Source: Candidatus Azambacteria bacterium (lineage in GTDB: Bacteria > Patescibacteriota > Minisyncoccia > GWC2-36-17 > WO2-46-25). Taken from it: a DNA stretch of 45,229 nt. Both the position numbers and the translations under genes were made by a program. Below the pieces are notes generated by a model, which saw only the letters and a program-made list of their open reading frames with translations, was not told the DNA's origin and did not search any database. Below, in pieces: positions 8,339 through 43,513 of this stretch (position 1 is the stretch's first letter; every line of letters starts with the position of its first letter). The DNA lies in assembly GCA_016234725.1 (NCBI GenBank), contig JACRAK010000032.1, positions 1 through 45,229 of the forward strand. Reading direction: 5' to 3'.

Positions 8339-9469
8339 TTATTTTAAACTTTTATATAACGATTTGTATTTTTCTATTGTCCGCATGAGCGCGAAGTATT
8401 GTGCTACACGCGCGCGGGCGGCGACACCCATTTCATGAGCGCGCGCGAGGTTGCTTAAAAGCTCCCGCAGAGCGTGGGATAACGCTTCAACATCCCCTGG
8501 CGGAACCAATAAACCTGTTTCTTTATCAATCACCATTTCAGGTATGCCGCCAACATTTGATGCTACCACAGGCACGCCGCAAGCGCCAGCCTCCAAAACC
8601 ACAATCCCCAACCCTTCCCATAATGAAGGCAAAACAAAAATGTCAGTGTCTTGTAAAATAGCTGGAATATCACGCCTAGTGCCCAAATAATTCACCCGTT
8701 CGCGTATATTTAAATCACGCGCCAAATCCAACGAATATGTTAATAAAGATCCCGCGCCAACCAACACCAACTCCCACGCAAGGTCATCTAAAAGTGCGAG
8801 CGCGCGAAGCAGTATCTCATGCCCTTTTTGCGGCTCCATGCGCGCCACACAAGTAATGTGCGGCATACGCACATTTGTTTTGTTATTTGTAAATGCGCCC
8901 GATACAACCGATGGCAACGGCGCTGGAATAAATTTCTGTATATCTACGCCATCATAAATCACCAGCAATTTTTTCTCTGGAAAATGATATGTCCGCACCG
9001 CAAATTGTTTTATAGCTTCTGAAAGGCATACCACGCGCGCGGGCGTAGTTGCCAATAATTTTTTTACAAATGTCTGCCACTTTTTTTCATCTGCATTGAT
9101 ATTATGCTCCGTGCTTATGATATGCTTTACTCCCGTTTTACGCGCCGCGTACCAGCCAAGAATATCCGCGCTCGTAAGATGCGTGTGCAAAATTGTTGGA
9201 GATTCTTTGCGTAAAAACGATACCAACGCGCGCGCCCGCTCGTACCACAAAATCCACTTTATTTTTGAATGTTTTTTAATAAGGCTGTCAAGGCGGACAA
9301 CACGCACGCCGGCGGATCTTAATTCTTCTTCCAAAGGGCCGCCCGCTACCATAGTAACCACCATGCTTTCAAACGCCGCGCGCGGCAAAGAAACGCACAA
9401 ATCAGCCACCAGCCGCTCCGCGCCGCCCAGCGCGAGCGTGGGAATACAATGAACAATTTTTATACTCAT
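8339..9469 (-). CDS. Glycosyltransferase family 4
   Basis: MSIKIVHCIPTLALGGAERLVADL...FVLPSLWEGLGIVVLEAGACGVPVVASNVGGIPEMV. Confidence 0.9.
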   Translation of the reverse strand: MSIKIVHCIPTLALGGAERLVADLCVSLPRAAFESMVVTMVAGGPLEEELRSAGVRVVRLDSLIKKHSKIKWILWYERARALVSFLRKESPTILHTHLTSADILGWYAARKTGVKHIISTEHNINADEKKWQTFVKKLLATTPARVVCLSEAIKQFAVRTYHFPEKKLLVIYDGVDIQKFIPAPLPSVVSGAFTNNKTNVRMPHITCVARMEPQKGHEILLRALALLDDLAWELVLVGAGSLLTYSLDLARDLNIRERVNYLGTRRDIPAILQDTDIFVLPSLWEGLGIVVLEAGACGVPVVASNVGGIPEMVIDKETGLLVPPGDVEALSHALRELLSNLARAHEMGVAARARVAQYFALMRTIEKYKSLYKSLK

Positions 9470-10794
9470 AGAGAAGATGATTCAAACAATCGCGCGGCGG
9501 CAAGCGCGAGTCCCACCGGCAACCACAGATGCACCCCATAATATGATGTGTTAAACAATTGAAAAACAAAACTTCCCGATGCGGATAAAAATAAACAAAA
9601 AAGCATTGCGCGGGAAGCGGAGCGCGGATCGCGTAAGACCCACGCCTTCCACAAACGCGCCACACACCACCACACAAAAACAATAAACGCGAGCGTGCCA
9701 AATAACCCCACTTCCGCGATTAATTTTTGAAACACTCCGTGCGCGTCCAAGGGGTCTCCATACTCCACGCCAAACACGCGCGTTTCTTCGACCAAAGGAA
9801 CAAATGATCCGACTCCATTTCCCAACAGAGGATGCGCTTTGAAAGCAGACCACGCGATGCCGGTGATGTCAAACCGTGTCGCGTTTGAAGAAATAACAAT
9901 GGGGCTGCGGATAAACACTGCCATATACACAACGAGCGGGGAAATGACAACCAATGTGGCACCAACAATACGCAAAAACGCAACGCGCGATATTTTTTTG
10001 TAAAAAAACATATAGATCGCGCCTTCAATAATCAACGCAATCCACGCGGCGCGTGAAAATGTCAAAAGCGCGGCGGCGAGCATCAAAATGAAACTCACAA
10101 AATACCATTTGCGCGCCGCTACTCTTTCCGTGCGCCACATGCAATACGCGGCAAGCGGTATGGCGGCTACCAACACCTCGGCAAGCAGGTTTTGATTCCA
10201 GCCAAACGGATAAAAACTGCCCCAACCAAGCGGCGTTACGCGCGTGAGAAATCCAAATGCCGCTTCTTTGAAAAAAAGAGAGAACAAACCCATGAGCGCG
10301 GCAATGATGCCGGTGGACAAAAATAATACGATGCTGTTTTTGAGAACGCGTTTGCTGGTAATAATCCACGATGGCAAGACAATCCACACCAAATAAAAAA
10401 ATAAGATGGGACGCAAAAAATATTTGAACGCGTTTGCGCGCACCTCTGGATCAACCTGAATAATAGAGATAAACGCGACAAACAGAAATGGTAGGAAAAA
10501 ATACCAGCCTATCGCGCGGAGTTCCGCGAAAGGTGTGAACGATCCTTTCAATACGCGCGTTGCTATACGCGCACCCACCAGAATAAGTAAAAACAGCGCG
10601 AGAAAATCCACGTAAGGAGCGTTAATATTACCGATATACGGAAGGTCTTTTGCCCAGCTCAGTTGGTTGAAATTCAAAATGAGTCCGGTGAAAGGACCTA
10701 AAAAAACAAACGCGTACCACAACCAAAGCGCGCGCTCCCAAAAAAACAGGAACGCGATGATGAATAATAGAATAAATACGCCAAGTGCGGACAT
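9466..10794 (-). CDS. O-antigen ligase / Wzy-C-like polytopic membrane protein
   Basis: Polytopic; 'HPLLGNGVGSFVPLVEETR...GDPLDAHGVFQKLIAEVGLFG' typical of the Wzy_C/O-antigen ligase family; overlaps the next gene by 4 nt. Confidence 0.85.
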   Translation of the reverse strand: MSALGVFILLFIIAFLFFWERALWLWYAFVFLGPFTGLILNFNQLSWAKDLPYIGNINAPYVDFLALFLLILVGARIATRVLKGSFTPFAELRAIGWYFFLPFLFVAFISIIQVDPEVRANAFKYFLRPILFFYLVWIVLPSWIITSKRVLKNSIVLFLSTGIIAALMGLFSLFFKEAAFGFLTRVTPLGWGSFYPFGWNQNLLAEVLVAAIPLAAYCMWRTERVAARKWYFVSFILMLAAALLTFSRAAWIALIIEGAIYMFFYKKISRVAFLRIVGATLVVISPLVVYMAVFIRSPIVISSNATRFDITGIAWSAFKAHPLLGNGVGSFVPLVEETRVFGVEYGDPLDAHGVFQKLIAEVGLFGTLAFIVFVWWCVARLWKAWVLRDPRSASRAMLFCLFLSASGSFVFQLFNTSYYGVHLWLPVGLALAAARLFESSSL

Positions 10795-10885: not shown

Positions 10886-10890
10886 TATAA

Positions 10891-11051
10891 GGGTCTGTCG
10901 CCGAATGCGCTTTTGCAGTGAAACGCGCAGATTTCGAGACAAAATTATTGAATAAATTTTGAAGTTTAACAGTGGTTAAGCTGAAAAATTTTGAAATAAT
11001 TTTGTCCGAAAGATGCGCGTTGCAGTCAAAATGACATTCGGCGACAGACCC
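10891..11051. repeat. Palindromic element family 1, full copy with TSD TATAA
   Basis: GGGTCTGTCGCCGAATGC...GACAGACCC flanked by TATAA at 10886-10890 and 11052-11056. Confidence 0.9.
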
Positions 11052-11076
11052 TATAAACAGTATAGCAGAAAAATAA

Positions 11077-11696: not shown

Positions 11697-13775
11697 CTAC
11701 TGCACCAACGGGGTGCACTTGAGCGCGAGGGTCATACCACTCGCCGCGCTCGGGAGCGCGCCGACGAGCGTGTCCACGCCGACGAAGAGCGTTTCGCCCT
11801 TCGCCACCTGCACAGCCACGACCTTGTAGTCAATGGCCTCGCAGGAGGACGGCGTGCACTTACCCTTGGCGACGACGACGATGTGCTTGTCCGACGGATC
11901 GGACAAGCCCACCTCCACCGTGTAGTCGCCGTCAGACACGAACTGCCAGAGCTTCTCTGCTCCTGGCACGCTCGTGGGCGGCGCACACCCCCACTTGTTG
12001 ACAACGCCTGTGAGGCCAGTGAGATCCACTGACCACGACGATCCGCACTGCACGCTCCCAACGGCCTTGCAGACCTGCTGGGCACAAAGCGGATCCCCGG
12101 CGCAGGCGGCGTCTTGGCAATCGACAAGACCGTTCTTGTCGTTGTCAACGCCGTCGCCGCACGCCACAGACTCCGGCGTGCAGACATTCTGCCCGGCGCA
12201 GGTGCCGCCGGAGCAGACATCGTCCGAGGTGCACTTGTTGCCGTCGTCGCACGCGGCCGTGTTCGGGGCGTTTACGCACCCCTTTGCAGGGTCGCACGAG
12301 TCGTCGGTGCAGGCGTTGCCGTCGTTGCAATTGGGCGGCGCGCCACCGGCGCACTTGCCGCCCGAGCACGCGTCTCCCACGGTGCAGGCGTTGCCGTCGT
12401 CGCACGCGGCCGTGTTCGGGGCGTTTACGCACCCCTTTGCAGGGTCGCACGAGTCGTCGGTGCAGGCGTTGCCGTCGTCGCAGTTGGGCGGCGCGCCTCC
12501 GGCGCACTTGCCGCCGGAGCAGACATCGCCCGAGGTGCACGCGTTGCCATCGTCGCACGCGGCCGTGTTCGGGGCGTTGACGCACCCCTTGGCAGGGTCG
12601 CACGAGTCGTCGGAGCACGGGTTCTTGTCGTCGCAGTTGACGACCTGACCCATGCAGACGCCACCCGAGCATGCATCCGGCATGGTGCAGGCGTTGCCGT
12701 CGTCGCACGCGGCCACATTGTTCACATGGACGCACCCGATTGCCGGGTCGCACGAGTCGTCGGTGCACCCGCTCCCATCGTCGCACGAGATGGACTTCTT
12801 TGTACAAAGTCCGCCCTCGCACTTCTCCGAAGTGCACGCGTTGCCGTCGTCGCAGGTCGCGGCGTTGTTGGCGAACACGCAGTTGCCTGTCTGCGTATCG
12901 CACGAGTCGTCTGTGCACGGGTTGCCGTCGTCGCACACCTTCTGCGCAACGACGCACTTGCCGCCGCCGCAGGTGTCGCCCGTGGTGCACGGGTTGCCGT
13001 CGTCGCAGGTCGCGGCGTTGGGGAGCGTTACACACCCCTTTACCACGTCGCACGAGTCGTCCGTGCATGGGTTCTTGTCGTCGCAGTCCGGCGCGGCACC
13101 ACCCACGCACTTGAAGGCGTTGTCCGCGGGGTCTATCCCGCATGCGTCGCCCGAGGTGCAGGCGTTGCCGTCGTCGCACACATGCCCCGCAAACGACTTC
13201 AAGAAGTCGCCGCAGGTCTGCGTGTTTACGGCGTAGTTCAAGCACATTGGCTGCTTGAACACGCAACCGTCCGTGCCGCAGGAGTTTTCCCCCGCGGCCT
13301 GCGGGTGCGCGCATCCTCCCTGCCCCCCGTAGAAGTACGGGTTGCAGTAGTCGGTGGTGCACGCATTGCCATCGTCGCATGACCCGTCCGGCGCGGGCGC
13401 GAAATTGCATCCGATGCCGAGCGGCCAGTACGTGGTGGAAGGATCCACGCACGTCTGGGCGACGAATGTCTCGCAGACGCCCGTTGTCCACGGCGTCTGC
13501 ATGGTGCAACGGACCACGCCGTTGCACTGGTCCGCCTGCCAGTACTTGAGCAACTGGCAGTCGGAGTCCTGCGTACAGGTGAGCGGCGCGGTGGAGTCCG
13601 TCGCCACCTTCTTCGGCACGCCCATCAGGGCGGCCGTGTGAATTTCCATTAACGACGCCACCGTGGCGCCGTCGTCCGTCTTCTCGACGGCCGCGCACGC
13701 GGCGCCAAGCCCTCCGAAGAGGGCGATGCCGGCGAGGAGAACCCCCACCAGCGCAAACTGTTTGAACTTCTTCAT
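11697..13775 (-). CDS. Secreted/lipoprotein Cys-rich repeat protein (Dicty_CTDC-like repeats) with C-terminal domain
   Basis: Signal MKKFKQFALVGVLLAGIALFGGLGAAC; tandem CDDGNACTDDSCDPAKGCVNAPNTAACDDGN; then 'CGDGVDNDKNGLVDCQDAAC' and a non-repeat C-terminus; aggaggggg upstream of the ATG at 13775. Confidence 0.85.
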   Translation of the reverse strand: MKKFKQFALVGVLLAGIALFGGLGAACAAVEKTDDGATVASLMEIHTAALMGVPKKVATDSTAPLTCTQDSDCQLLKYWQADQCNGVVRCTMQTPWTTGVCETFVAQTCVDPSTTYWPLGIGCNFAPAPDGSCDDGNACTTDYCNPYFYGGQGGCAHPQAAGENSCGTDGCVFKQPMCLNYAVNTQTCGDFLKSFAGHVCDDGNACTSGDACGIDPADNAFKCVGGAAPDCDDKNPCTDDSCDVVKGCVTLPNAATCDDGNPCTTGDTCGGGKCVVAQKVCDDGNPCTDDSCDTQTGNCVFANNAATCDDGNACTSEKCEGGLCTKKSISCDDGSGCTDDSCDPAIGCVHVNNVAACDDGNACTMPDACSGGVCMGQVVNCDDKNPCSDDSCDPAKGCVNAPNTAACDDGNACTSGDVCSGGKCAGGAPPNCDDGNACTDDSCDPAKGCVNAPNTAACDDGNACTVGDACSGGKCAGGAPPNCNDGNACTDDSCDPAKGCVNAPNTAACDDGNKCTSDDVCSGGTCAGQNVCTPESVACGDGVDNDKNGLVDCQDAACAGDPLCAQQVCKAVGSVQCGSSWSVDLTGLTGVVNKWGCAPPTSVPGAEKLWQFVSDGDYTVEVGLSDPSDKHIVVVAKGKCTPSSCEAIDYKVVAVQVAKGETLFVGVDTLVGALPSAASGMTLALKCTPLVQ

Positions 13776-13896
13776 TTTTCTGCCCCCTCCTTTGGGGCTT
13801 TTGACCACGAACACGGCTAGAGAATTTCCCTGCCGTCGGACAGACACGTCTGACGCGATAATCCGTGCACCCGCACGAACATCATCTTCAGAGCGC

Positions 13897-13959
13897 ATAA
13901 ACTGTCTTAAAGAATACCTCTTTTTTATTAAAGAAGAGAACCTCTTTAAGACAGTTTAT
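13897..13959. repeat. Inverted repeat, possible hairpin
   Basis: ATAAACTGTCTTAAAG ... CTTTAAGACAGTTTAT. Confidence 0.6.
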
Positions 13960-14069
13960 ACACCCTATCAAAAATCAATCAAACTAGATTAAAAAAGACC
14001 ATAATTATCCCAATTTTAGGATAACACTTTACCCTAGCATATACCCTTAAAGCTGTCAAATTTTAAGCC

Positions 14070-14098
14070 TTGACAGAATTGCCACAATAAGCTATATC
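14070..14098 (+). promoter_or_regulatory. Sigma70-type promoter
   Basis: TTGACA - 17 nt - TATATC, upstream of the CDS at 14175. Confidence 0.65.
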
Positions 14099-14174
14099 TA
14101 AAACAGACGCGAAGCTCGCGTCAATAGTTCATTCTATCAAAATAAGGCCCGATGCGCGGCCTTTGAGGAGTGCC

Positions 14175-15893
14175 ATGCGCACATTCTCCACCCTTTGCAT
14201 CATCGTGGTTGCCGCACTGTGCGGTTGTCCTAGCAATCAAGAAGTAGTCGCTCCGGTGGCGGACACAAGTGCCGACACGACCAGCGACATCGCCTACCCG
14301 GATGTGCTGGGCGTGGACTACGCCAAGCCGTGCACGAGCGCCACTGCGGCGTCCGTCTGCGACGACCACAGTGTCTGCACCATGGACTCCTGCTACATCA
14401 ACCAGAGCAAGGAGGGAAGCGGATTCTGTCAGCACCTGCCGGTGGACACCATCGACATCCAGTGCAACGACGGAAACGCCTGCACCGTGAGCGACACCTG
14501 CGTAAACGGAAAATGCGTGGGCGGCGGGCTCAAGGTCTGCGATGACAAGAACCCATGCACGGACGACTCGTGCGACACGGCCTCCGGCATGTGTTCTTCC
14601 AAGAACAACACCGCGGCGTGCGACGACGGCAACGCGTGCACTGTGGAAGACGTGTGCAAGAACGGCAAGTGCAAGGGCACACTCGTTGCATGCGACGATG
14701 TGAATGACTGCACGAGCGACTCATGCGACCCGGCCTCCGGGTGCGTCTTCACTAAGCTCGCGCAAGGCAAGTGCGACGACGGCGACATCTGCACTACGGA
14801 AAAGTGCGAAGCTGGCGTGTGCGTGTCCAAGCCGCTGGTGTGTGAAGACGGCAACCCGTGCACCAACGACTCGTGCGACCAGACAGCAGGCGGATGCGTT
14901 TCCACAGACGCGCCGGCAGGAAGCCCTTGCGACGACGGCAATCCGTGCACCATGAGCGACGCGTGCTCCGGAGGCAAATGCACCTCGGGGCAACCCGTCA
15001 AGTGCGATGATGCCAATGCGTGCACCAATGACGCCTGCGACAAGGTGAGCGGACAGTGCGTACACACCCCGAGCGGGCTCACTACCTGCGACGACAACGA
15101 CAAGTGCACGCAGGATGATGCGTGTACCTACTCGGTTGCCGAAGGCAAGCAGGTCTGCGCGGGCAAGCCGCTGGACTGCAACGACGGCAATCCGTGCACG
15201 AGCGACCAGTGCGACCCAAAGGTGGGGTGCACGCACCTTACCAACAACGGGGTGTGCAACGATGCCAACCCGTGCACGACAGATGATGTCTGTAAAGCAG
15301 GGACATGCGCCGGAAAGGCAATCCAGTGCGATGACGAAAACGTCTGCACCAAGGATTACTGCCACCCAATCTTTGGGTGCATGTACGAGTATGTGAGCGG
15401 AATTGCGTGCGACGACGGCAACGCGTGCACCAAAAACGACTCATGCATGGGCGGCGCCTGCACCGGCGGCGTGTACCTCCAGTGCAACGATGGCAACGAC
15501 TGCACAAGCGACTCGTGCAACCCCAACATAGGGTGCGTGTTCACCAAAGTGAGCAACGGCGCCGCGTGCATTGACGGAAACGCATGCACCACGGACGAGA
15601 AGTGCCAAGACGGCAAGTGCCTCCCGGGGCAAACCGTCAACTGCAACGACGGAAACTCGTGCACCGTGGACGCGTGCGACACGCAGACCGGCAAATGCGC
15701 GCACGCTCCATTGCCCAATTACACCGTCTGCGACGACGGCAATGGGTGTACCAGCGGGGACTATTGTTACAAGGGGGAATGCACCGGACCGGTGTACAAC
15801 CTCTGTGATGACAAGAACCCGTGCACTGTGGACACCTGCAGTCCAACAAATGGCAAGTGCTACAACACGCCGATCAAGGACTGTACGCAGTAA
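14175..15893 (+). CDS. Cys-rich repeat lipoprotein (Dicty_CTDC-like)
   Basis: MRTFSTLCIIVVAALCGC lipobox; CDDGNPCTNDSCDQTAGGC repeats throughout; 'gaggag' upstream of the ATG. Confidence 0.85.
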   Translation: MRTFSTLCIIVVAALCGCPSNQEVVAPVADTSADTTSDIAYPDVLGVDYAKPCTSATAASVCDDHSVCTMDSCYINQSKEGSGFCQHLPVDTIDIQCNDGNACTVSDTCVNGKCVGGGLKVCDDKNPCTDDSCDTASGMCSSKNNTAACDDGNACTVEDVCKNGKCKGTLVACDDVNDCTSDSCDPASGCVFTKLAQGKCDDGDICTTEKCEAGVCVSKPLVCEDGNPCTNDSCDQTAGGCVSTDAPAGSPCDDGNPCTMSDACSGGKCTSGQPVKCDDANACTNDACDKVSGQCVHTPSGLTTCDDNDKCTQDDACTYSVAEGKQVCAGKPLDCNDGNPCTSDQCDPKVGCTHLTNNGVCNDANPCTTDDVCKAGTCAGKAIQCDDENVCTKDYCHPIFGCMYEYVSGIACDDGNACTKNDSCMGGACTGGVYLQCNDGNDCTSDSCNPNIGCVFTKVSNGAACIDGNACTTDEKCQDGKCLPGQTVNCNDGNSCTVDACDTQTGKCAHAPLPNYTVCDDGNGCTSGDYCYKGECTGPVYNLCDDKNPCTVDTCSPTNGKCYNTPIKDCTQ

Positions 15894-15975
15894 ACGCTAC
15901 GCGCCGCCGGGCGCGCGAGCGCCGTCCAAAATAAAACGCGTCTATAAAGACGGGTCATCCTACCACATTACCCAC

Positions 15976-16000
15976 CCTACGATTAACCCGTAGGTTTTTT
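15976..16000 (+). terminator. Rho-independent terminator
   Basis: cctacg-attaacc-cgtagg followed by tttttt. Confidence 0.65.
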
Positions 16001-16029
16001 ATTGAGATAGGACATATGGGTCCTATGAG

Positions 16030-16171
16030 CTTTGAATTACGAAATGGCGTTGAGGCAAAGATTATGAGGGGACTACGGAGCGCGACGGCGCGAGTATTGA
16101 GCAAAAATTCAACAGAATTTTTGCGTGCCCCGAATAATTTTTGCCTCAAAAAGACATTTCGTAATTCAAAG
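16030..16171. repeat. Palindromic element family 3, full copy with 7-bp TSD CTATGAG
   Basis: CTTTGAATTACGAAATG...CATTTCGTAATTCAAAG flanked by CTATGAG at 16023-16029 and 16172-16178. Confidence 0.9.
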
Positions 16172-16183
16172 CTATGAGACATA

Positions 16184-16213
16184 TTGACAAATCATACCGT
16201 CTCTTGATAGGAT
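16184..16213 (+). promoter_or_regulatory. Putative sigma70 promoter
   Basis: TTGACA - 18 nt - TAGGAT. Confidence 0.5.
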
Positions 16214-16269
16214 AACCTATTGCAAAGAAAAAGCTTCTTTCGCAAGATAAACACAACAAGGAGAATACG

Positions 16270-17550
16270 ATGCGCACTTTGACAACTTTTTTCACAGCCA
16301 TCGCATTCGCGATCGCTGCTACTGCCGGATGCGCCGCCTCTGATGAGGCGCAGGCGCCATCCGTCGCCGGTGTTGACACACTCAAGTGGGCGGATGCCAC
16401 TCAAACATCCGACCTACCCGATATGTCCGGCTTCAAGCTGGACAGCGGGAAGAAAACCGATTGGCACACGGATGAGGACGAGCTTGCAACATCATCCGGT
16501 GAGTTTGGCGCGCCGTGCGCGCAGAACTCCGAGTGCCTCTCCGGGTTCTGCATACCCAACGAGGACGGAAAGATCTGCACCAAGACATGCATAACTGATT
16601 GTGAAGAGGGGTACAACTGCGAACAAACGACATGGACAGGTGGAGACCCCCTCTACCTCTGTTTCTCGCGGTATGCTCGGTTGTGCAACCCATGCACACA
16701 GCACGCGGACTGCAACGGGGTTGAAAGCATCATCAACAAATGCCTTGACAGCGGCCCCGAGGGCAAGTTCTGCGGCATTGCCTGTGTGAGTGGCGCCACC
16801 TGCCCCGTGTTCTATCAGTGCACGGAGGTAATGGTAGATGGCGTTGCCGTCAACCAATGTGTGCCCGCAAAAGGCGCGCTTTGCAAGTGCAACAACAGAG
16901 CAAAGGAGCTCGGGCTGGCCACCGTGTGCTACAACCCGGCATCCCCGAGCACCTGCAAGGGCGCGCGAACCTGCACCGCAGACGGACTCTCCGCGTGCGT
17001 CATTCCTGCCAAGCCAGAAAAGTGCAACGGCTTGGATGACAACTGCAATGGAGAGACGGATGAAGGCCTCTGCGATGACGGCAACCCATGCACCACGGAT
17101 TCGTGCAACACCGACGGCTCGTGCAAGCACAAGCAGTTGGAAGGCACACCCTGCGATGACGGCAATGCCTGCACCACGGTGGACAAATGCGCGGCAGGTA
17201 AATGCGTGGGCGGAGCTCTGAAGCTCTGTGATGATGACAACGCCTGCACGGATGACAAGTGCGATCCTGCCGGCGGATGCCTCTTCACGAGCAACAAGGA
17301 TCTGTGCGACGACGGTAACCAGTGCACCACCGCGGACAAGTGCAGTGAAAAGAAATGCGTGGGCGGACCGCCTCCCAATTGCAACGACAATAATCCATGC
17401 ACGAGTGACTCCTGCGACACTGAAAAGGGTTGCATGCACAAAGCAGACACCAAGAAAGATGGTGTTACTTGCACCGATGACGGCAACGCGTGCACCGTGG
17501 ACAAGTGCCAAAACGGACAGTGCAAGCATGTGGCAATCCCCGGGTGCTAG
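16270..17550 (+). CDS. Cys-rich repeat lipoprotein with MopE-like metal-binding motif and CTDC-like repeats
   Basis: MRTLTTFFTAIAFAIAATAGC lipobox; 'EKCNGLDDNCNGETDEGLCDDGN' (MopE-type motif); CDDGNACTTVDKC repeats; 'aaggaga' RBS. Confidence 0.85.
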   Translation: MRTLTTFFTAIAFAIAATAGCAASDEAQAPSVAGVDTLKWADATQTSDLPDMSGFKLDSGKKTDWHTDEDELATSSGEFGAPCAQNSECLSGFCIPNEDGKICTKTCITDCEEGYNCEQTTWTGGDPLYLCFSRYARLCNPCTQHADCNGVESIINKCLDSGPEGKFCGIACVSGATCPVFYQCTEVMVDGVAVNQCVPAKGALCKCNNRAKELGLATVCYNPASPSTCKGARTCTADGLSACVIPAKPEKCNGLDDNCNGETDEGLCDDGNPCTTDSCNTDGSCKHKQLEGTPCDDGNACTTVDKCAAGKCVGGALKLCDDDNACTDDKCDPAGGCLFTSNKDLCDDGNQCTTADKCSEKKCVGGPPPNCNDNNPCTSDSCDTEKGCMHKADTKKDGVTCTDDGNACTVDKCQNGQCKHVAIPGC

Positions 17551-17816
17551 ACGCGCATGTGCGTGTGCGGTATTAAGAAGGACAGATATCTACTGCCTGC
17601 GCTTTCACTGATATGCCGCGCGCATAATAAAAAAAACGGCGCGCGGCGCGCCTGTGTCATTTATTCCAACCATCTTCCCCACCAGACAGCAAACCCTGTC
17701 TTTTTTTATTTTGATTCTTGTTTTCTCATTTTTTTATCAAATCGCCTTTGTTGAGACACCTTATGATTTTTTTATTTTCCATCTACTTTTTTAGACATAT
17801 ATTTGAAATTTTTTTA

Positions 17817-18224
17817 TCATGACAACGCGCGCGCTAAATCTTTAGGAATTTCCAATTTCATTTTTAATTTTTCCGCCATTTTTTTAATCCAATACTCATA
17901 GAGCTCATGTTTTTTACGGACTTCAAAATATCGGTCATCGGAAATTTCTAAATGACGGCGAATAAGATTTGATAAACCTAGTACAATATCATTTGTTTTT
18001 TTTAATTCATTTTCCAAACCACCGACTCGTTCTTCAAGACCACCCATATGTTTTTCCAAACCACCGACTCGTTCTTCAAGACCACCCATATGTTTTTCCA
18101 AACCACCGACTCGTTCTTCAAAATCCTCCCTAATAACCATGTGATGCTCCAAAAAATCCATAATGTCGTCTGTTGACGCGCCATAGGATTTTTTGCCATT
18201 TCCGTTTGTCTTTTTATGAGTCAT
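17817..18224 (-). CDS. Coiled-coil protein with tandem heptad-like repeats
   Basis: 135 aa; GGLEKHMGGLEERVGGLEKHMGGLEERVGGLE. Confidence 0.7.
   Translation of the reverse strand: MTHKKTNGNGKKSYGASTDDIMDFLEHHMVIREDFEERVGGLEKHMGGLEERVGGLEKHMGGLEERVGGLENELKKTNDIVLGLSNLIRRHLEISDDRYFEVRKKHELYEYWIKKMAEKLKMKLEIPKDLARALS
18011..18121. repeat. 42-bp tandem repeat within the coiled-coil gene
   Basis: tttccaaaccaccgactcgttcttcaagaccacccatatgtt begins at 18011, 18053 and 18095 (last unit partial). Confidence 0.85.
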
Positions 18225-18278
18225 AAAATTGAAATTTACTTATCCACAAGCACAAATAAGTATATCACATTTTTAAAA

Positions 18279-18308
18279 AAGAAAAAAGACAGTGGTTTGA
18301 CTGTCTTT
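18279..18308 (-). terminator. Terminator on the minus strand, downstream of the 18540..22013 gene
   Basis: AAAGACAG-tggttt(ga)-CTGTCTTT with a T-run on the minus-strand side. Confidence 0.6.
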
Positions 18309-18539
18309 GGGTTGGATTTCATACGGCGCGGACGCACCGGATAAAACTGGGTTTTGGTGAGAAGATTGAGGTGGGTGACGGCAGGAGCGCCCCGCCTCCG
18401 CGTGTGCCTGACTGTTCATCAAGAGACACACGAAGGCGGGAACACTCACTCGTTTTGCGACTTTGGGCGCCAGCGCCACGGATATGCCTTGTGGCTACTC
18501 CATGATTCTGTCGCCCGTCCTGCGTGGCGACGCTCGGCT

Positions 18540-21500
18540 CTACGGACAGCCGAGCTGGACCGGCGTGAAGGCGAGGTTGCCCTCGCCCGCGCCGCCGCAC
18601 GCCCACGGGTGCTTGGTCAGCACCCCGGTCTTGACCACCCCATTGACCTTGACGGTCAACGAGGTGAGACTCGGAGTGCCAGCGTCGCACCCGTACCACG
18701 GCCATGTCCCACTTGGGACGCGCGCCGCGATCTCAATGCCCCAGATGCAGGCTTCCACCTGTCCGAGGGACAAAGAGAACGGCGACATCCCGAGCTTCTC
18801 CGCGGCCTTGGTTGCCGGAGCAACCGTATCCGCGAAGAAGACATGGACTTCGGCCATGGCACCCGCGGGCAGTTCCACCGAAATGGAAACTGCCCACGGA
18901 GCCGGGGCTGGCGGAGGCGCCGGGCACCCCGCGATCTTTGCGTGGGAACATCCCACCTTGGGATCGCAGGCATCCAGCGTGCAGGGGTCGGCGTCGTCGC
19001 ACGAGAGAGTTGCCCCTCCCGCACAGAAGCCGTTCTTGCACGCGTCGCCCGTGGTGCACGCGTTGCCGTCCGAGCACGGCACGGTGTTGGGAATGTAGAC
19101 ACATCCCTTTGCCGCGTCGCACACATCCGTAGTGCAGGCGTTGCTGTCATCGCAGTTGACGACCTTGTGCCAGACGCCGGACCACTTATCACAGTAGTCC
19201 AACGTGCACGCGTTGCCATCATCCGCGTTGACCGTTGCGCCCTTGCACGCGCCGCCCGAGCAGGTATCGGCGCTCGTGCAGGCGTTGCCGTCGTCGCAGG
19301 TTGCCGTGTTGTTCGCGTGCGTGCAACCCTTGGCAGGGTCGCATGCGTCGTTGGTGCAGGGGTTACCGTCGTCGCAGTTGACGGCCTCACCCTTGCACGC
19401 GCCGTCCTTGCACGCGTCGCCCGTGGTGCACGCGTTGCCGTCCGAGCAAGCCGGCAAACCCCAGCTAGTGCTGGTGAGTGCCTTATGCTCGCACACGCCG
19501 GACTTGGCGTTGCACGAGTCGTCCGTGCAGGGGTTCTTGTCGTCGCAGTCCGAGTCCTTCTCGCACGCGACGCACCCCTGCACTTCGTACCAGTACACTG
19601 CCGCGTGACAGAACTGCCCCGAGGGACAGAAGCTATCAAGCGGCGTGTGTTGGCAGTGGTTCCCCGAGGGGTCCACCGCTTCCACGCACTTGTCCGTAGT
19701 GCACGCGATGCCGTCATCGCAGTTGGGCTTGATGCCGGGCTTGCACAGCCCGAGGACGCACTTCTCTGCTCCATTGCAGAACAGAGCGTCGTCGCAGTCG
19801 TAGTCCTTGGCGCATTCCACTGCCGCCAAGGTGCCGACGCACTTGCCTGCCTTGCACGCGTCGCCCGTGGTGAGCGCGTTGCCGTCATCGCACGGCGCGG
19901 TGTTGTTGACGTGCGCGCAACCCTTCTTCGGGTCGCAGGCGTCGTCCGTGCAGGGGTTCGCATCATCGCAGGAGATCATGTCCCCCGCGCATTTGCCACC
20001 CGAGCACACATCGCCGCTCGTGCACGCGTCGTTGTCATTGCACTTAGCGCCCGCGTTCGCAGGCACCAGAGCACACTTGCCCGTTGACGGATCGCAAACG
20101 TTTCCGGCGCACGCAGTGTCCTGCGTTGCCGAGCACGAAACGACCGTCTTGGGGTCAACGACGCACTTGTGCCCTTGCGAGCACACGAGCGTGCCGTTGC
20201 ACGCGTTGCCGTCTTCCAGCGACGCGCAGTCGCTGGCGGTCTGGCACTCGCACGCATTGGCGCCGCTCGCGCACTTGCCGCTCGAGCACTTGTCGCCCGA
20301 GGTGCACGCGTTGCCGTCGTCGCATGCGGCCGCGTTCGGCGTGTGGACGCAAACACCTGCCTTGCAGGCGTGGTCCGTGCAGGGGTTGCCGTCGTCGCAG
20401 TTGACAACTTCGCCCTTGCACGCGCCGTTTACGCACACGTCCCCGCTCGTGCAGGCGTTGCCGTCGTCGCAGGGCTTCATGTTCGCGCCCTGCCCTTCCT
20501 TGCACGCACCTGTTGCCGGGTCGCATGTGGAAGTTGTGCACGCCGATGAAGGCGCGCAGACGACAGGCGCGGTCAACCCGCACAGCCCGCCCTTGCAAAC
20601 AGCCACGCCGTTGCAGGCGTTGCCGTCGTCAAACGCGACGCAGTCGCTGGCGGTCTTACAACCGCCAGACTGCTTGACCATACCCGCGCACGCGCCAGCC
20701 TTGCACTGGTCGCTGGTGGTGTTGGTGTCGCCGTCGTCGCACGCGGCCGTGTTCGGCGTATGCTTGCACACGCCGCTCGCGCTGTTGCACGAGTCCACGG
20801 TGCACGAGTTGCCGTCGTCGCAGTCCATTGCCGGACCCGCGACGCACTTGCCCCCGAAGCACTTGTCGTCCACGGTGCAGGGGTTGCCGTCGTCGCAGAC
20901 GAACGGCGGGCTCGCGACCGCCGGCTTGTGAACGCATCCACTTGCCGGGTCGCAGGAGTCCACTGTGCACGGGTTGCCGTCGTCGCAGAAAACCTGCCCG
21001 ACAGCCACGCCCGCGCACACACCGTCCTTGCACTTGTCGCCCTGCGTGCACACATTGCCGTCGTCGCACGCGGCCGTGTTGGGCGTGCCCTTGCAGTCGC
21101 CGCCCGAGCACACATCGCTCGTGCACGGGTTGCCGTCGTCGCAGGGCTTGGTGTTCGGCTTGAACACGCAACCCTTGACGGCATCGCACGAGTCGTCCGT
21201 GCAGGCGTTTGCATCGTCGCACTGGAGCGACGAGCCGCCCACACAGGCGCCAGCCTTGCACTGGTCGCCCTGCGTGCACACATTGCCGTCGTCACAGGCG
21301 GCCGTGTTGGGCGTGCCCTTGCAGGCACCGCCCGAGCACACGTCGTTGGTGCACGGGTTGCCGTCGTCGCACGCCTTCTTATTGTAGGCGTACTGGCAGC
21401 CCTTGACCTTGTCGCACGAGTCGTCCGTACAGGCGTTGCCATCGTCGCACACGGTGTTGTCCGCCGTGTGCTTGCAACCCGTTGCCGGGTCGCACGAGTC

Positions 21501-22013
21501 AACCGTGCAGGAGATGCCGTCGTCGCAGTCGGCCGCAAAGCCTCCCGCGCACGCGCCATCCTTGCACGCGTCCTTGACCGTGCACAGGTTGCCGTCGTCG
21601 CAGACGGCCGTGTTGGGCGTGCTCACGCACGCCGCCTTCCCTGCCGTCACGGCGCACTTGTCCGTGGTGCACGGGTTGCCGTCGTCGCAGTTGATCGGCG
21701 CGCCACTCTGGCACGCGCCAACCGCGCACCAATCTCCCGTGGTGCACGGGTTGCCGTCGTCGCACGCGGCCGTGTTGGGCGTGCTCACGCACGCCGCCTT
21801 CCCTGCCGCCACGGCGCACTTGTCCGTGGTGCACGGGTTGCCGTCATCGCAGTTGACGGGCTTGCCGTCGTCCGCGATGCAGAAATCCTGCGCCTTGGGC
21901 GCAGGCGCCGGCGCGGGCTTCTCACCCTGCCAGAACTCGTCTCCACACCCTGTGGAGATCGAGAGAACCGCCGCGAAACAAACCGTCGCGACCGCGGTGA
22001 TGATGCGCTTCAT
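18540..22013 (-). CDS. Large Cys-rich repeat lipoprotein (Dicty_CTDC-like) with unique C-terminal domain
   Basis: MKRIITAVATVCFAAVLSISTGC lipobox; dozens of CDDGNPCT/DDSCD repeats; 'aaggagg' RBS before the ATG at 22013; C-term 'WAVSISVELPAGAMAEVHVFFAD...'. Confidence 0.85.
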   Translation of the reverse strand: MKRIITAVATVCFAAVLSISTGCGDEFWQGEKPAPAPAPKAQDFCIADDGKPVNCDDGNPCTTDKCAVAAGKAACVSTPNTAACDDGNPCTTGDWCAVGACQSGAPINCDDGNPCTTDKCAVTAGKAACVSTPNTAVCDDGNLCTVKDACKDGACAGGFAADCDDGISCTVDSCDPATGCKHTADNTVCDDGNACTDDSCDKVKGCQYAYNKKACDDGNPCTNDVCSGGACKGTPNTAACDDGNVCTQGDQCKAGACVGGSSLQCDDANACTDDSCDAVKGCVFKPNTKPCDDGNPCTSDVCSGGDCKGTPNTAACDDGNVCTQGDKCKDGVCAGVAVGQVFCDDGNPCTVDSCDPASGCVHKPAVASPPFVCDDGNPCTVDDKCFGGKCVAGPAMDCDDGNSCTVDSCNSASGVCKHTPNTAACDDGDTNTTSDQCKAGACAGMVKQSGGCKTASDCVAFDDGNACNGVAVCKGGLCGLTAPVVCAPSSACTTSTCDPATGACKEGQGANMKPCDDGNACTSGDVCVNGACKGEVVNCDDGNPCTDHACKAGVCVHTPNAAACDDGNACTSGDKCSSGKCASGANACECQTASDCASLEDGNACNGTLVCSQGHKCVVDPKTVVSCSATQDTACAGNVCDPSTGKCALVPANAGAKCNDNDACTSGDVCSGGKCAGDMISCDDANPCTDDACDPKKGCAHVNNTAPCDDGNALTTGDACKAGKCVGTLAAVECAKDYDCDDALFCNGAEKCVLGLCKPGIKPNCDDGIACTTDKCVEAVDPSGNHCQHTPLDSFCPSGQFCHAAVYWYEVQGCVACEKDSDCDDKNPCTDDSCNAKSGVCEHKALTSTSWGLPACSDGNACTTGDACKDGACKGEAVNCDDGNPCTNDACDPAKGCTHANNTATCDDGNACTSADTCSGGACKGATVNADDGNACTLDYCDKWSGVWHKVVNCDDSNACTTDVCDAAKGCVYIPNTVPCSDGNACTTGDACKNGFCAGGATLSCDDADPCTLDACDPKVGCSHAKIAGCPAPPPAPAPWAVSISVELPAGAMAEVHVFFADTVAPATKAAEKLGMSPFSLSLGQVEACIWGIEIAARVPSGTWPWYGCDAGTPSLTSLTVKVNGVVKTGVLTKHPWACGGAGEGNLAFTPVQLGCP

Positions 22014-22358: not shown

Positions 22359-22373
22359 TTTATTAAATCACAT

Positions 22374-22494
22374 AGGACTTACGCATTTGGCCAATTTCTT
22401 CGTCAAAGCCTGCGCTTCTCGCTCGTCGTAGGTATACTACGACTTGCTCCGATGCTCGGCTTTTCCTCGAACTTGTCTCAAATGCGTAGGTCCT
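22374..22494. repeat. Palindromic element family 4 with TSD ATCACAT
   Basis: aggacttacgcatttggcc...tctcaaatgcgtaggtcct; nearly identical to 44768..44888; ATCACAT on both sides. Confidence 0.85.
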
Positions 22495-22620
22495 ATCACA
22501 TTCACACACTTTTCCAACGACCGATATTCCTATTAAAAATATCATCGCCGTAATTTTCTCAATCTTCAATTGTCAATGAACAGTAAATCTATAAGCGCAA
22601 ACTGTCTTGTAATCTCTGTG

Positions 22621-25534: not shown

Positions 25535-25714
25535 TATGGACATCACATTTAGAAACCGCACTCATAATCCATTACTACGGCGATTTGCTTGTGTTTCACA
25601 AAAAAATAAGCTCGCTGTATATTTAATACAGCTTGCTTATTTTTTAGCTCCAACACTTCGCAAATCATCCGCATTAAAGAATTTTTAATGCGATTTCTAA
25701 ATGTGATGTCCATA
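25535..25714. repeat. Palindromic element family 2, full copy
   Basis: TATGGACATCACATTTAGAAA...TTTCTAAATGTGATGTCCATA; central aataagctcgctgtatatttaatacagcttgctt hairpin. Confidence 0.85.
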
Positions 25715-28152: not shown

Positions 28153-28157
28153 ATTAT

Positions 28158-38076: not shown

Positions 38077-38676
38077 TTAATTTTCACTTTTCCACACCAG
38101 CCGCCCAGCCGCGAACAATCCAAACGCGAGCGCGCCAAAAATCGCGTTCAACACATAATTAGGCCGCACGGGAAACCGTGACAATACGGGCGTATCAACG
38201 GTTTTAATTTCCACATCCGCGCCGGTATATTGCGTGCCTTGTGTGTGCAATACAGACGCCACCGCGCCGGCAAGAGCCTCTGCCTGTTTTTGATCCGTAT
38301 TAAACGCCGTCACACTCAAAAGCGAGGTGCCGGAAAGCGCGGTCGGGCTCACCGCGCGCTTCCATCGCTTGCGTTTCTTTTGTTCCGTTGTCTGATACGG
38401 CGTTTGATCAATCTGAAATCCCGGCGCGCTCATTACTTTATCAAAAAATGAAGTGGTGCGGATGACTTCTGAAAGCGTCTGATTGATCCGCTCGCCGGAT
38501 TTGACCGCGGTGTAAGGATCAACGCCCAAATTGACTTTTGGTATCACGAGCAGTTTGGTGGTCGCGGCGTATTCTTGCGGCAAAAAAATACTGACCAAAA
38601 TCGCAATCAAAGCGCCTACAATAACCGCCTTGATTATTGAACTTTTGTGATGCAGTATAAGCGATGTGTATGCCAT
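38077..38676 (-). CDS. Wzz/chain-length-determinant-like polysaccharide co-polymerase
   Basis: N-term TM, 'LPQEYAATTKLLVIPKV', C-term 'DTPVLSRFPVRPNYVLNAIFGALAFGLFAAGRLV'. Confidence 0.75.
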   Translation of the reverse strand: MAYTSLILHHKSSIIKAVIVGALIAILVSIFLPQEYAATTKLLVIPKVNLGVDPYTAVKSGERINQTLSEVIRTTSFFDKVMSAPGFQIDQTPYQTTEQKKRKRWKRAVSPTALSGTSLLSVTAFNTDQKQAEALAGAVASVLHTQGTQYTGADVEIKTVDTPVLSRFPVRPNYVLNAIFGALAFGLFAAGRLVWKSEN

Positions 38677-38692: not shown

Positions 38693-39889
38693 TCAATTAT
38701 TCAAACTGCCAAGCGTAATGGTTGTCTTACCTTCTTCTGTGCCGCGCACATAGGTAATTTCTACGCGGTCTCCCGGGCCATAATCAAACAAAATATCCGG
38801 CAAAGACCGAACCGCGCTGATTGACTCATTGTTGAGCGCGAGTACGCGATCCCCCGCTTTGAGCGCGAGCGGCGCAAGCGGACTTTTGCGATCCACACCA
38901 GAGAGTTTGCGCGCGCTATCTCCCGCAAGCACAACGCCGCGTACGCCGTACGAAGTATTTTCCTGCGCGTTGAGCGTTTGTGAAGCTTCATAAAAATGAA
39001 TGCCAAGAGAAGGGCGTGTTATTTTATGATTTTTAAGCACGCGATCAAACGCGCTCTTCAAAAATCCGACGCGCACGATGCTCCGATTATTTTTGTTTCC
39101 TGCAATCACGCCCACAATCTCGCCTTTGCCGTTTAAAAGCGGCGTGCCAACAGACTCCGCGCCCACAGAGTTTTTGAGCACCGCAAAACGATATGGGATG
39201 TCCGATGAAAAAGGCTGGCGATCTTTAGTACTCAATGTCACCGCGGCGGCCACAACCTCTGAAGGCATCAACCCTTCTCCGGGCGACACCACCCATGCAA
39301 ACGCGCCCGGGTCTATACGATCATTGTTTACAAAAGGCAATACATCAAAATTAAGGCCTTTAATTTTTAAAATCGTTAAATCAGTCGCTGTGTCCGCGAC
39401 AAGCGATTCAATCTTGTACACGCGCGCGTTGCCGGTAACAACCACCAAATCTTTAAACGATACGGAACGGATATGCGGAGAAGTTGTCGCAAGATACCCG
39501 TCTGCCGTCAAGAAAAACGCGCTCGCCAAACGATCTTCTGTGCGAGGAGCGGTAACGCCCACAATCGCGCTCGCGCGATAAATCCCCACCGTGGTTGCAA
39601 GTGCTTTTTGGGTAAGTGTTTCACGCGATAAGATGGTATGCTCTGCTTCTGAAGTGGAAAAATACTCGCGCACTTTGCTGTTTGGACCCCATAAAAAATC
39701 CTCGCCCAAACGGGTGTTGACCACAATGCCTCCCACGAATCCGGAAAAAAAACCAAATAATACCGCCAGACCCACGGTTTTTAATAAATACCATTCATAG
39801 GAAACATCCACCGGACCGCGCTTGCGAATCTCACTCGGCAAATGCGGTGAAACTTTTATTGGTAAATTTTTTTTGGGCGCGGCAGTCAT
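38693..39889 (-). CDS. Trypsin-like (HtrA/DegP-like) membrane-anchored serine protease with PDZ-like C-terminus
   Basis: 'SAFFLTADGYLATTSPHIRS', 'ATDLTILKIKG', 'GAESVGTPLLNGKGEIVGV', PDZ-like 'SPLAPLALKAGDRVLALNNESI'. Confidence 0.8.
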   Translation of the reverse strand: MTAAPKKNLPIKVSPHLPSEIRKRGPVDVSYEWYLLKTVGLAVLFGFFSGFVGGIVVNTRLGEDFLWGPNSKVREYFSTSEAEHTILSRETLTQKALATTVGIYRASAIVGVTAPRTEDRLASAFFLTADGYLATTSPHIRSVSFKDLVVVTGNARVYKIESLVADTATDLTILKIKGLNFDVLPFVNNDRIDPGAFAWVVSPGEGLMPSEVVAAAVTLSTKDRQPFSSDIPYRFAVLKNSVGAESVGTPLLNGKGEIVGVIAGNKNNRSIVRVGFLKSAFDRVLKNHKITRPSLGIHFYEASQTLNAQENTSYGVRGVVLAGDSARKLSGVDRKSPLAPLALKAGDRVLALNNESISAVRSLPDILFDYGPGDRVEITYVRGTEEGKTTITLGSLNN

Positions 39890-39890
39890 T

Positions 39891-40643
39891 TTAAAACCAT
39901 CTAATAACTAAAAATATTAATATCCAACTTGCAAAAAGCAGTGTCGTTCCTTTTAATACAGTCCTCGTTTTAATTTCTTTTTCTTGAATCAATACCGCCA
40001 TCCACCAACTATACCAGACGCCGCTTGCCCATAGCAATCCTTTGGTTGCAAATCCAAAGGTGGTAAATCCAATCACCCAAAATAATTCTATCGCAATAAG
40101 CGCAATAACCATGAGATAAAAAAACGAGGAAGGAACGAAAGTTTGAATTTTGAGCTTCCACATACTCGCGGTGGCAGCGGCGCTTATTGCCACCAACCAA
40201 AATAGCACACTCCACGCGCTTTGTTCCACAAAGATTTGCCACGCGTAAAGCGCGATACCGGATGCTAAAATCGCAAATGCAAGCCAAAAAGCGGCAAGCT
40301 TGCTCATGCGCGTCTCATGCTCTGTTGGCGCGCGCATCCACGCTTCCAACCGATACCAATATACCACGCTCATTACGGCAACGCTCGCGAGCCACACATT
40401 CCGAAACAGCGGACGATCTATAAACATGAAAAGAAACAATGCCGCGTACGCCCCCATGAGCCATGGCAGATACCCATACGCGCGCGACGGATGCGTGTGT
40501 TGCGCGCGCGCGATAATCAGCACTCCGTCTATCAGTACTCCTCCCGCAATCCACCACCACAAACCAGTAGGAAACCTGCTCACCAAAAGCGCGCTGACAC
40601 ACCATACCGCAACCGCGCTCCATGTAAAAAATTGATGCATCAT
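39891..40643 (-). CDS. Polytopic integral membrane protein
   Basis: 250 aa, multiple hydrophobic segments. Confidence 0.7.
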   Translation of the reverse strand: MMHQFFTWSAVAVWCVSALLVSRFPTGLWWWIAGGVLIDGVLIIARAQHTHPSRAYGYLPWLMGAYAALFLFMFIDRPLFRNVWLASVAVMSVVYWYRLEAWMRAPTEHETRMSKLAAFWLAFAILASGIALYAWQIFVEQSAWSVLFWLVAISAAATASMWKLKIQTFVPSSFFYLMVIALIAIELFWVIGFTTFGFATKGLLWASGVWYSWWMAVLIQEKEIKTRTVLKGTTLLFASWILIFLVIRWF

Positions 40644-40655
40644 AATACAAACGTT

Positions 40656-41702: not shown

Positions 41703-41802
41703 GGAGTTGATTCGGAAAGAAAAATGATAAATACAGTATACTCATTTTCTCAACAAAATGCAAAAACCATGGTACACTTGTTTTACATTAACTTCTGCAT
41801 AT

Positions 41803-42237
41803 ATGGAAATCACCAATCCGCGCGGGCGGTTTGACTATGACATTTTAGACAAATGGGAAGCGGGACTGCGCCTTACCGGAGCAGAAGTTAAGTCTGTCCG
41901 CGCAGGTTCTATGAGTCTTAAGGGATCATATATCACCATTCATAATGAAGAAGTATATCTCATAAACGCGCATATTGGATTATACGCAAAAGCTATTCAA
42001 AAAGGCTATAATCCCACTCAATCGCGCAAACTCCTTTTACATAAAAAAGAGATAAAAAGACTAATTGGCTTAACACAGCAAAAAGGCTTGACATTGGTGC
42101 CGTTAAAGGTATATAGTAGCCATAACAAGCTTAAACTTGAATTTGGGCTTGGGCGTGGCCGTTCGCGGATTGATAAGCGCGCGGTCATTAAAAAACGCGA
42201 CATAGACCGCGAGGTCAAAACCGCGTTTTCGTCTTAA
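41803..42237 (+). CDS. smpB: SsrA-binding protein SmpB
   Basis: DYDILDKWEAGLRLTGAEVKSVRAGSMSLKGSYI...GRGRSRIDKRAVIKKRDIDREVKTAFSS; ATG at Met16 of the ORF. Confidence 0.95.
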   Translation: MEITNPRGRFDYDILDKWEAGLRLTGAEVKSVRAGSMSLKGSYITIHNEEVYLINAHIGLYAKAIQKGYNPTQSRKLLLHKKEIKRLIGLTQQKGLTLVPLKVYSSHNKLKLEFGLGRGRSRIDKRAVIKKRDIDREVKTAFSS

Positions 42238-42240
42238 AAA

Positions 42241-42401: not shown

Positions 42402-42407
42402 TTAAAT

Positions 42408-42813: not shown

Positions 42814-42837
42814 GAATTAATTTAATTTTTTTTCATA

Positions 42838-43416: not shown

Positions 43417-43513
43417 TTTTACCATATTTTGGCTCACAGGAAATGCTGGTGCGATATCTTGACGCCGCTTAACCTCTGTGATATAGTCAAGGCACTATTG
43501 TGAACTAAAATGT

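Follow-up and report, generated by a model that had tools for sequence, protein, structure and literature searches.

The window analysed here, the whole 45,229-nucleotide contig JACRAK010000032.1, carries a cluster of four genes for exported, cysteine-rich repeat proteins (CT1-CT4) lying between genes for surface polysaccharide synthesis. This cluster appears to be a conserved surface-coat locus of Patescibacteria and not a recent accident, because a relative shares both the CT2-CT3 gene pair and the order of the locus, and a CTDC lipoprotein recurs in a third family.

Four exported CTDC-repeat proteins

The four genes are as follows.

11697..13775, minus strand: CT1 (692 aa), signal peptide or lipobox-like N-terminus, 8 separate scored PF00526 stretches, unique C-terminal domain; a MopE-like CGDGVDNDKNG loop lies within the gene
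14175..15893, plus strand: CT2 (572 aa), lipobox-type N-terminus, the rest a CTDC array up to the C-terminus (12 stretches)
16270..17550, plus strand: CT3 (426 aa), lipoprotein-like N-terminus, Cys-rich unique domain (residues 77-262), MopE motif, 5 CTDC repeats
18540..22013, minus strand: CT4 (1157 aa), lipobox-type N-terminus (STGC), 17 CTDC stretches, unique C-terminal domain

An earlier note on this DNA had proposed four exported proteins with Dictyostelium-like CTDC repeats, and all four open reading frames lie where it placed them, each with an export-type N-terminus (by eye) and an array of PF00526 (Dicty_CTDC). For CT1 to CT4 in turn, the E-values are 8.7e-47, 9.9e-69, 7.9e-23 and 1.2e-88 and the scores 157, 227, 80 and 291 bits, all above the Pfam gathering cut-off of 27 bits for this family; chance matches are excluded. 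A regular expression for the C.D...C core counted 14, 19, 5 and 28 copies, spaced by about 24-29 aa, within tandem four-cysteine modules of about 24 aa. The repeats are very rich in aspartate, and cysteine content is 11-14%.

The same note had seen a MopE-type motif in one protein, and PF11617 was indeed recovered in CT3 by a frame scan of the whole genome (16993-17064; 28.3 bits against a cut-off of 27), as one copy of the CNGLDDNCNGETDEG type within a CTDC protein. The match is marginal, because hmmscan of the whole CT3 protein did not report PF11617. The two unique C-terminal domains described earlier are those of CT1 and CT4, and had no match among the loci compared. The suggested TIGR02232 profile was not borne out, as the NCBIfam search of CT1-CT4 returned zero families at E <= 1; CT2 gave zero matches to PDB sequences, and nothing was found in viral contigs or the viral fold library. 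The relatives expected in myxobacterial-type bacteria do exist, as homologues in metagenome-assembled genomes (MAGs) of Deltaproteobacteria/Myxococcota.

Lipobox-like motifs, judged by eye only, are STGC in CT4, TAGC in CT3, LCGC in CT2 and GAAC in CT1. A genuine patescibacterial relative of a different family (G718, 98% complete) encodes signal peptidase II (E 1.2e-14), VKOR (E 1.5e-22) and an exported thioredoxin-like protein, and a crude motif scan recognised no lipoprotein diacylglyceryl transferase in it. The genome check for oxidative folding enzymes that had been proposed covered this relative, where VKOR was found. CT1-CT4 would be exported through Sec, and at least three of the four are probably lipid-anchored after cleavage by signal peptidase II.

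AlphaFold2 modelled a 271-aa array with a mean pLDDT of 87 as nearly all beta hairpins, a confidently predicted rod. The head of CT3, built from four sequences, was modelled poorly (pLDDT 58). The best fold match, the Gal/GalNAc lectin adhesin of Entamoeba, was weak: its E of 2.4e-3 falls short of 0.001, and TM-scores were low (0.16) for a predicted flexible rod. The four-cysteine modules may be pictured as beta-hairpin rods stapled by putative disulfides and projecting from the cell, ending in a unique globular tip in CT1 and CT4 and beginning with a Cys-rich head in CT3.

A conserved polysaccharide locus

The neighbouring genes are listed below.

3509-4714, plus strand: GT4 glycosyltransferase (Pfam)
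4886-6928, minus strand: GHL15/FG-GAP protein (Pfam)
6925-8226, minus strand: GT4 glycosyltransferase (Pfam)
8339-9469, minus strand: GT4 glycosyltransferase (Pfam)
9466..10794, minus strand: Wzy_C/O-antigen ligase-type polymerase (PF04932, E 8.6e-13), left edge of the conserved polysaccharide part
17817..18224, minus strand: small coiled-coil protein within the cluster, third-position GC (GC3) 0.29, no convincing family
23051-23566, minus strand: GC3-rich orphan, Ala/Pro-rich with a TM segment
23996-25456, minus strand: GC3-rich orphan, coiled coil and TM segment
26269-27162, minus strand: GC3-rich orphan, signal peptide and coiled coil
38077..38676, minus strand: Wzz-like chain-length protein (PF02706, E 3.6e-7), where the conserved right part begins
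38693..44060: right flank, with trypsin/PDZ protease, membrane protein, AI-2E transporter, SmpB, tmRNA, IF3 and L20

The cluster had been described as lying next to polysaccharide genes, and it is flanked by Wzy, Wzz and the three GT4 proteins, which together mark a Wzy-dependent polysaccharide locus; no Wzx flippase was recognised within the window. The three GC3-rich orphans had zero Pfam matches.

On contig C14 of G718 the order is three glycosyltransferases and Wzy, then Cys-rich lipoproteins, then Wzz-PDZ-AI2E-SmpB followed by IF3-L20. The lipoproteins between Wzy and Wzz are a MopE protein of 638 aa, a CTDC protein of 575 aa and a Cys-rich protein of 456 aa. The Wzy orthologue there is 36-38% identical and the Wzz homologue 37.5%, in the same order; the three window glycosyltransferases have syntenic homologues adjoining Wzy, and AI2E, SmpB, IF3 and L20 are all on this contig. 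An orthologous CT2-CT3 pair is adjacent on contig C3 of G718, at 42-45% identity over the full length for CT2 and 47-49% for CT3, whose nearest relative is patescibacterial. In the third family a single CTDC lipoprotein holds a fixed position in three species, with no recognisable polysaccharide genes adjoining. Further PF00526 matches in the class of the genome under which our contig is filed (G012, G154, G275 and others) are distinct, isolated proteins. A recent transfer of the cluster as a single island was considered and abandoned, as G718 has the same pair, locus and GC3, and synonymous sites are saturated.

Origin of the contig

The whole contig is mis-binned: it comes from another patescibacterium and not from the genome under which it is filed (G000). 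In tetranucleotide usage the flanks correlate at about 0.77 with the remaining G000 contigs, which themselves score 0.93-0.99, and G000:C30 carries a second copy of IF3. Mis-binning also explains why flank orthologues are scarce among the relatives of G000: searches of its genus and its order with Wzy and with the giant PP2C protein gave none, or a single weak Wzy match. A DUF11 tree did not place the contig, its branch being very long (3.2). The earlier idea of a small-genome bacterium as the setting holds in that the neighbourhood is patescibacterial, but fails for the genome of filing, and claims about G000 itself call for caution in view of this mis-binned contig.

Several families of repeats are dispersed along the contig.

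10889..11057: inverted-repeat element of about 165 bp, termini GGTCTGTCGCCGAATGC
22708-22879 (inside the cluster), 28154-28324, 42239-42406, 44240-44405: further copies of this element
2028-2168, 3297-3395, 4733-4848, 137-192: partial copies of this element
16030..16171: second repeat, between CT2 and CT3
8232-8321, 10799-10889, 22230-22375, 27351-27470: related copies of the second repeat
22372..22495: third repeat, inside the cluster, 97.6% identical to right-flank 44766-44889
25535..25669: fourth repeat, inside the GC-rich segment, 86.8% identical to window 1-136

The 165-bp element was absent from the other G000, delta-locus and G718 stretches compared.

These repeats bear on the possibility, named in the earlier note as one that would undo its reading, that the cluster is myxobacterial DNA within a chimeric or contaminated assembly. 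The CTDC genes have a GC3 of 0.70-0.86 where the flanks have 0.40-0.55, their nearest named relatives are the Deltaproteobacteria/Myxococcota MAGs, and the Markov composition of the arrays is nearer to those MAGs than to the flanks. However, the contig has no N runs, four dispersed repeat families have copies among the cluster genes as well as in the flanks, the two flanks are alike in composition (r 0.94) and together form one conserved neighbourhood, and the independent G718 has the same genes in the same locus order. Given the common repeats, the flank composition and this synteny, we rejected a chimera, which we regard as extremely improbable.

Codon composition and gene origin

Third-position GC sets the CTDC genes sharply apart from the genes around them, and in several patescibacterial families they keep a GC3 of 0.70-0.88 in genomes of about 0.25-0.5, even though synonymous sites between CTDC orthologues are saturated. 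One reading is that the genes truly belong to their genomes but arrived there recently, and more than once, from GC-rich donors resembling Myxococcota (hosts or prey, perhaps), with the insertion site alone conserved. In its favour, codon usage is donor-like in each of the five genomes examined, three MAGs of delta/Myxococcota type have homologues of the unique domain of CT3 (33-41% identity), GC3-rich orphans adjoin the arrays, and just 3 of the 384 genomes in the class of G000 contain PF00526 above its cut-off. We nevertheless consider it unlikely: CT3 is nearer to its patescibacterial homologues than to those of the MAGs, the CT2-CT3 adjacency and Wzy-Wzz position are common to G718, and the spacers between cluster genes are AT-rich native repeats. 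Furthermore, in the pair G444/G457 the synonymous divergence of the CTDC gene (0.33) is like that of its neighbours (0.22-0.35), and the gene has therefore been inherited vertically since these two split. Polarised synonymous changes in this pair (57 S to W, 18 W to S) are uninformative, because a saturated outgroup with a GC3 of 0.76 yields an equal ratio.

Tentatively, and with somewhat less than even confidence, we suggest that the codon choice or mRNA of coat genes is under continuous selection, or that GC-rich donors, hosts for example, keep supplying the genes anew. If so, either cause would mark molecules at the interface between epibiont and host. Foreign-looking GC in such genes is no proof of recent transfer or contamination.

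Proposed function

We think it fairly probable that lipid-anchored or secreted, disulfide-stapled rods and the Wzy/Wzz polysaccharide form a coat or adhesin layer. Rods and polysaccharide share one conserved locus and would most likely give an episymbiotic patescibacterium a rigid coat or adhesion layer; surface exposure and interaction with the polysaccharide are predicted, the latter from the locus only. Asp-rich loops are the one feature that points to calcium, and binding of Ca2+ by the repeats is putative. CT1-CT4 could instead be mainly metal-binding, scavenging or buffering Cu or Ca2+, and the Asp-rich repeats, the MopE motif in CT3 and a G718 neighbour with four scored stretches of MopE would fit. 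We consider this distinctly improbable, since PF11617 is itself just a 'putative' metal-binding motif, most arrays are without it, the regular four-Cys spacing and confident beta-hairpin model suit disulfides, and no metal transporters were identified within the window.

The attachment of Patescibacteria to other cells, and their life on them, is poorly known and is decided at their surface. The fixed order of polymerase, disulfide-rich rods and chain-length protein offers concrete coat or adhesin candidates, and a synteny rule by which the coat locus may be found in other genomes.

Comparison with known systems

EcmA and EcmB of Dictyostelium are annotated as matrix proteins with Dicty_CTDC (PMC9117722). 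Compared at the CTDC repeat only, they are like CT1-CT4 in having tandem modules and in being exported, the matrix role being that of Dictyostelium. These eukaryotic proteins are not known to have a lipobox of the bacterial kind, a MopE motif or an associated polysaccharide locus. The CTDC proteins of the Deltaproteobacteria/Myxococcota MAGs (L034-L038) have arrays of the same module, and in L034, L036 and L038 a CT3-type head domain (33-41%) precedes MopE-like and CTDC segments; they differ in reaching about 2500 aa, in GC-rich genomes, and no Wzy-Wzz synteny was recognised in the stretches compared. MopE proteins (PF11617) share their motif with CT3, where it is a single copy inside a CTDC protein and metal binding is putative.

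The kind itself is not new, since Ca. Peribacter riflensis is known to have exported Cys-rich proteins in clusters. In this organism a 14-gene cluster encodes large exported Cys-rich proteins (mean 1655 aa, 7% Cys, most without a family) for which attachment was proposed; several weakly resemble Myxococcus Cys-rich repeat proteins, and the genome shows investment in surface polymers and a disulfide-formation protein (Anantharaman et al., 2016; PMC4736985). Both are CPR/Patescibacteria with a cluster of such proteins, here four in 10 kb. CT1-CT4 differ in size (426-1157 aa), in cysteine content (11-14%), in their clear PF00526 arrays and in lying within a conserved Wzy-Wzz locus found in other families.

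Results

An earlier note on the window had described four clustered genes for exported, Cys-rich repeat proteins, and this observation is confirmed. The open reading frames were found as follows, with counts of the core C.D...C:

11697-13775 (-), CT1, 692 aa, 14 cores
14175-15893 (+), CT2, 572 aa, 19 cores
16270-17550 (+), CT3, 426 aa, 5 cores
18540-22013 (-), CT4, 1157 aa, 28 cores

All four N-termini resemble signal peptides ending lipobox-like, and the cores are spaced 24-29 aa apart. The proposed CTDC arrays were borne out, as PF00526 (Dicty_CTDC) matches every protein at 80-291 bits, far over the cut-off (E 7.9e-23 to 1.2e-88). The MopE motif was found in CT3, barely above the PF11617 cut-off, while NCBIfam gave no family at E <= 1 for CT1-CT4, and hence not TIGR02232. 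CT1 and CT4 do each finish in a unique non-repeat domain, for which no relatives were found among the loci compared.

Among 380 genomes sampled from the phylum, a full-length CT3 orthologue (49%, E 2e-120) was found in G718, a patescibacterium of another family (f236; 0.9 Mb, 98% complete, 1% contamination). A CT2 orthologue lies immediately upstream, matching the window, and genes reading by sequence as TsaD and DnaE lie downstream. On G718 contig C14, GT3-GT5-GT6-Wzy is followed by three lipoproteins, namely a MopE protein of 638 aa, a CTDC protein of 575 aa and a Cys-rich protein of 456 aa, and by more exported proteins; next come Wzz, a PDZ protein, an AI-2E transporter and SmpB, and farther along IF3 and L20. 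The window's own Cys-rich set is flanked in the same order. Because the MopE lipoprotein (L153 13694-15607 (-); PF11617 E 6.3e-43) occupies the equivalent locus, the Cys-rich members seem exchangeable. Three species of a third family (G444, G457 and G698) have a single CTDC lipoprotein of 720-750 aa, constant in position between the same neighbours and near a thioredoxin reductase (named from sequence alone, without a family search). Elsewhere PF00526 is rare: of 384 genomes in the class that includes G000, the genome under which the window is filed, 3 have it above the cut-off, and one of the three is G000, through the window contig. This surface-protein locus of Patescibacteria is real and well supported, and the earlier reading was correct in outline. 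Two related proteins with short CTDC-like repeats occur in other Patescibacteria (L128 490-1686 and L130 1348-2628; G131 and G119), their C-terminal region resembling, by eye, a domain of lectin/laminin-G type.

A contig search for CTDC relatives gave six loci outside the phylum, all in Deltaproteobacteria/Myxococcales-type MAGs. The unique head of CT3 (residues 77-262) is present in three such loci, L034, L036 and L038, at 33-41%; its nearest relative is in G718 (47%), and a five-row tree left the order among window, G718 and L034 open. Myxococcota-like bacteria and Patescibacteria likely draw on a common or exchanged gene pool.

Dispersed repeats occur in cluster and flanks:

22708-22879, inverted-repeat element of ~165 bp, inside the cluster
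10889-11057, 28154-28324, 42239-42406 and 44240-44405, same element, flanks
137-192, 2028-2168, 3297-3395 and 4733-4848, same element, partial copies
16030-16171, 22230-22375 and 27351-27470 (cluster), 8232-8321 and 10799-10889 (flank), second family
22372-22495 (cluster) and 44766-44889, third repeat, 97.6% identity
25535-25669 (cluster) and 1-136, fourth repeat, 86.8% identity

The ~165-bp element has inverted termini of ~26 bp (GGTCTGTCGCCGAATGC) and is present about nine times, in full or in part, on one contig. It resembles a non-autonomous insertion element; no transposase was seen, and the element's terminus was not found in the other loci compared with it, including other stretches of G000 and the delta loci. 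The copies at 10889-11057 and 42239-42406 are 98% identical, and that at 28154-28324 separates the gene for a RelB-type antitoxin (28336-28614 (-), PF04221 E 1.5e-7) from one for a YafQ/ParE-like toxin (27835-28155 (-), weak match). Also present are a giant 2957-aa protein (28691-37564 (-)) with a PP2C phosphatase domain around residue 700, no full-length relative of which was found in eight relatives of G000, and, AT-rich in the GC-rich cluster, a small coiled-coil protein (17817-18224 (-)) with near-identical 42-nt tandem repeats at 18010-18135.

Discussion

A foreign or chimeric insert was suspected from composition: genes at 11.7-27.2 kb have a third-position GC (GC3) of 0.59-0.86 (the small coiled-coil gene, 0.29, excepted) against 0.40-0.55 in flanking genes, and third-order Markov scores place the CTDC arrays closer to deltaproteobacterial MAGs than to the flanks. 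However, four lines of evidence speak against the myxobacterial chimera that the earlier note had named as a danger to its reading. The left and right flanks agree in composition (r 0.94), AT-rich spacers among the cluster genes contain dispersed repeats common to the flanks, the window is free of N runs, and an independent genome, G718, has the same arrangement. The window is contig C23 of the 923-kb G000, and we infer that it is a bin contaminant from another patescibacterium, because its flanks correlate with other G000 contigs in tetranucleotide usage at only ~0.77 (those contigs against their own mean, 0.93-0.99, stretches >= 10 kb), because another IF3 gene lies on contig C30 of G000, in a neighbourhood as in its congeners G001 and G002, and because the window's DUF11 protein, though on a very long branch, is nearer other families of the class than G000's own genus. 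G000 is listed with 3.82% contamination, and the 45-kb contig makes up ~5% of the genome.

High GC3 recurs in these genes. It is 0.70-0.86 in the CTDC genes of the window, 0.74-0.79 in those of G718 (0.88 in a Cys-rich neighbour) and 0.73-0.76 in G444, G457 and G698, where most neighbours have 0.21-0.39. Across CTDC and adjoining exported genes (window 11697-27162; L152, L153, L201-L203) it stays at 0.70-0.88; the genomes are AT-biased, and the synonymous sites of these genes are saturated. The shift affects all amino acids (Lys AAG 0.90 against 0.24 in the flanks) and is almost as high outside the repeats as within them. Codon agreement between window and G718 at identical residues does not exceed chance (CT3 0.47, expected 0.49; CT2 0.55, expected 0.57), and therefore an old relic composition should have vanished if the sites were neutral. 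The two alternatives are selection on the codons and renewal of the genes from GC-rich donors. Selection is favoured because the CTDC gene is vertically inherited in G444 and G457, with synonymous divergence (0.33) like that of its neighbours (0.22-0.35), but polarised synonymous counts in this pair were uninformative. The module alone does not force high GC3, since few-repeat CTDC proteins in several other families have 0.24-0.46.

An AlphaFold2 model of a 271-aa CT4 array (24 rows) consists nearly entirely of short beta hairpins (mean pLDDT 87); its pTM of 0.45 fits a flexible rod. Among PDB folds it comes closest to an adhesin of Entamoeba, the Gal/GalNAc lectin, at an E of 2.4e-3 that is too weak to support a claim. 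The CT3 model is poor outside the repeats. Oxidative folding, which bears on the disulfide-rich coat that had been proposed, was examined in G718: the genome encodes VKOR (E 1.5e-22) and, under the Pfam cut-off, a membrane-anchored thioredoxin-like protein. It also has a gene for signal peptidase II (E 1.2e-14), and the lineage is therefore predicted to form disulfides and to process lipoproteins. The CTDC proteins are thus probably disulfide-stapled surface rods, membrane-anchored or secreted, that would be produced together with a Wzy/Wzz polysaccharide; most likely, the two form a coat or adhesion layer.

A single paper in the literature searched mentions PF00526 by number, and the bacterial side is thus little discussed there, which does not prove absence. 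The window cluster is of the same kind as the exported Cys-rich proteins of Ca. Peribacter riflensis (Anantharaman et al., 2016; PMC4736985); here the PF00526 arrays are clear and the polysaccharide locus is conserved. The window proteins have the CTDC repeat in common with Dictyostelium EcmA and EcmB, which PMC9117722 gives as Dicty_CTDC matrix proteins.
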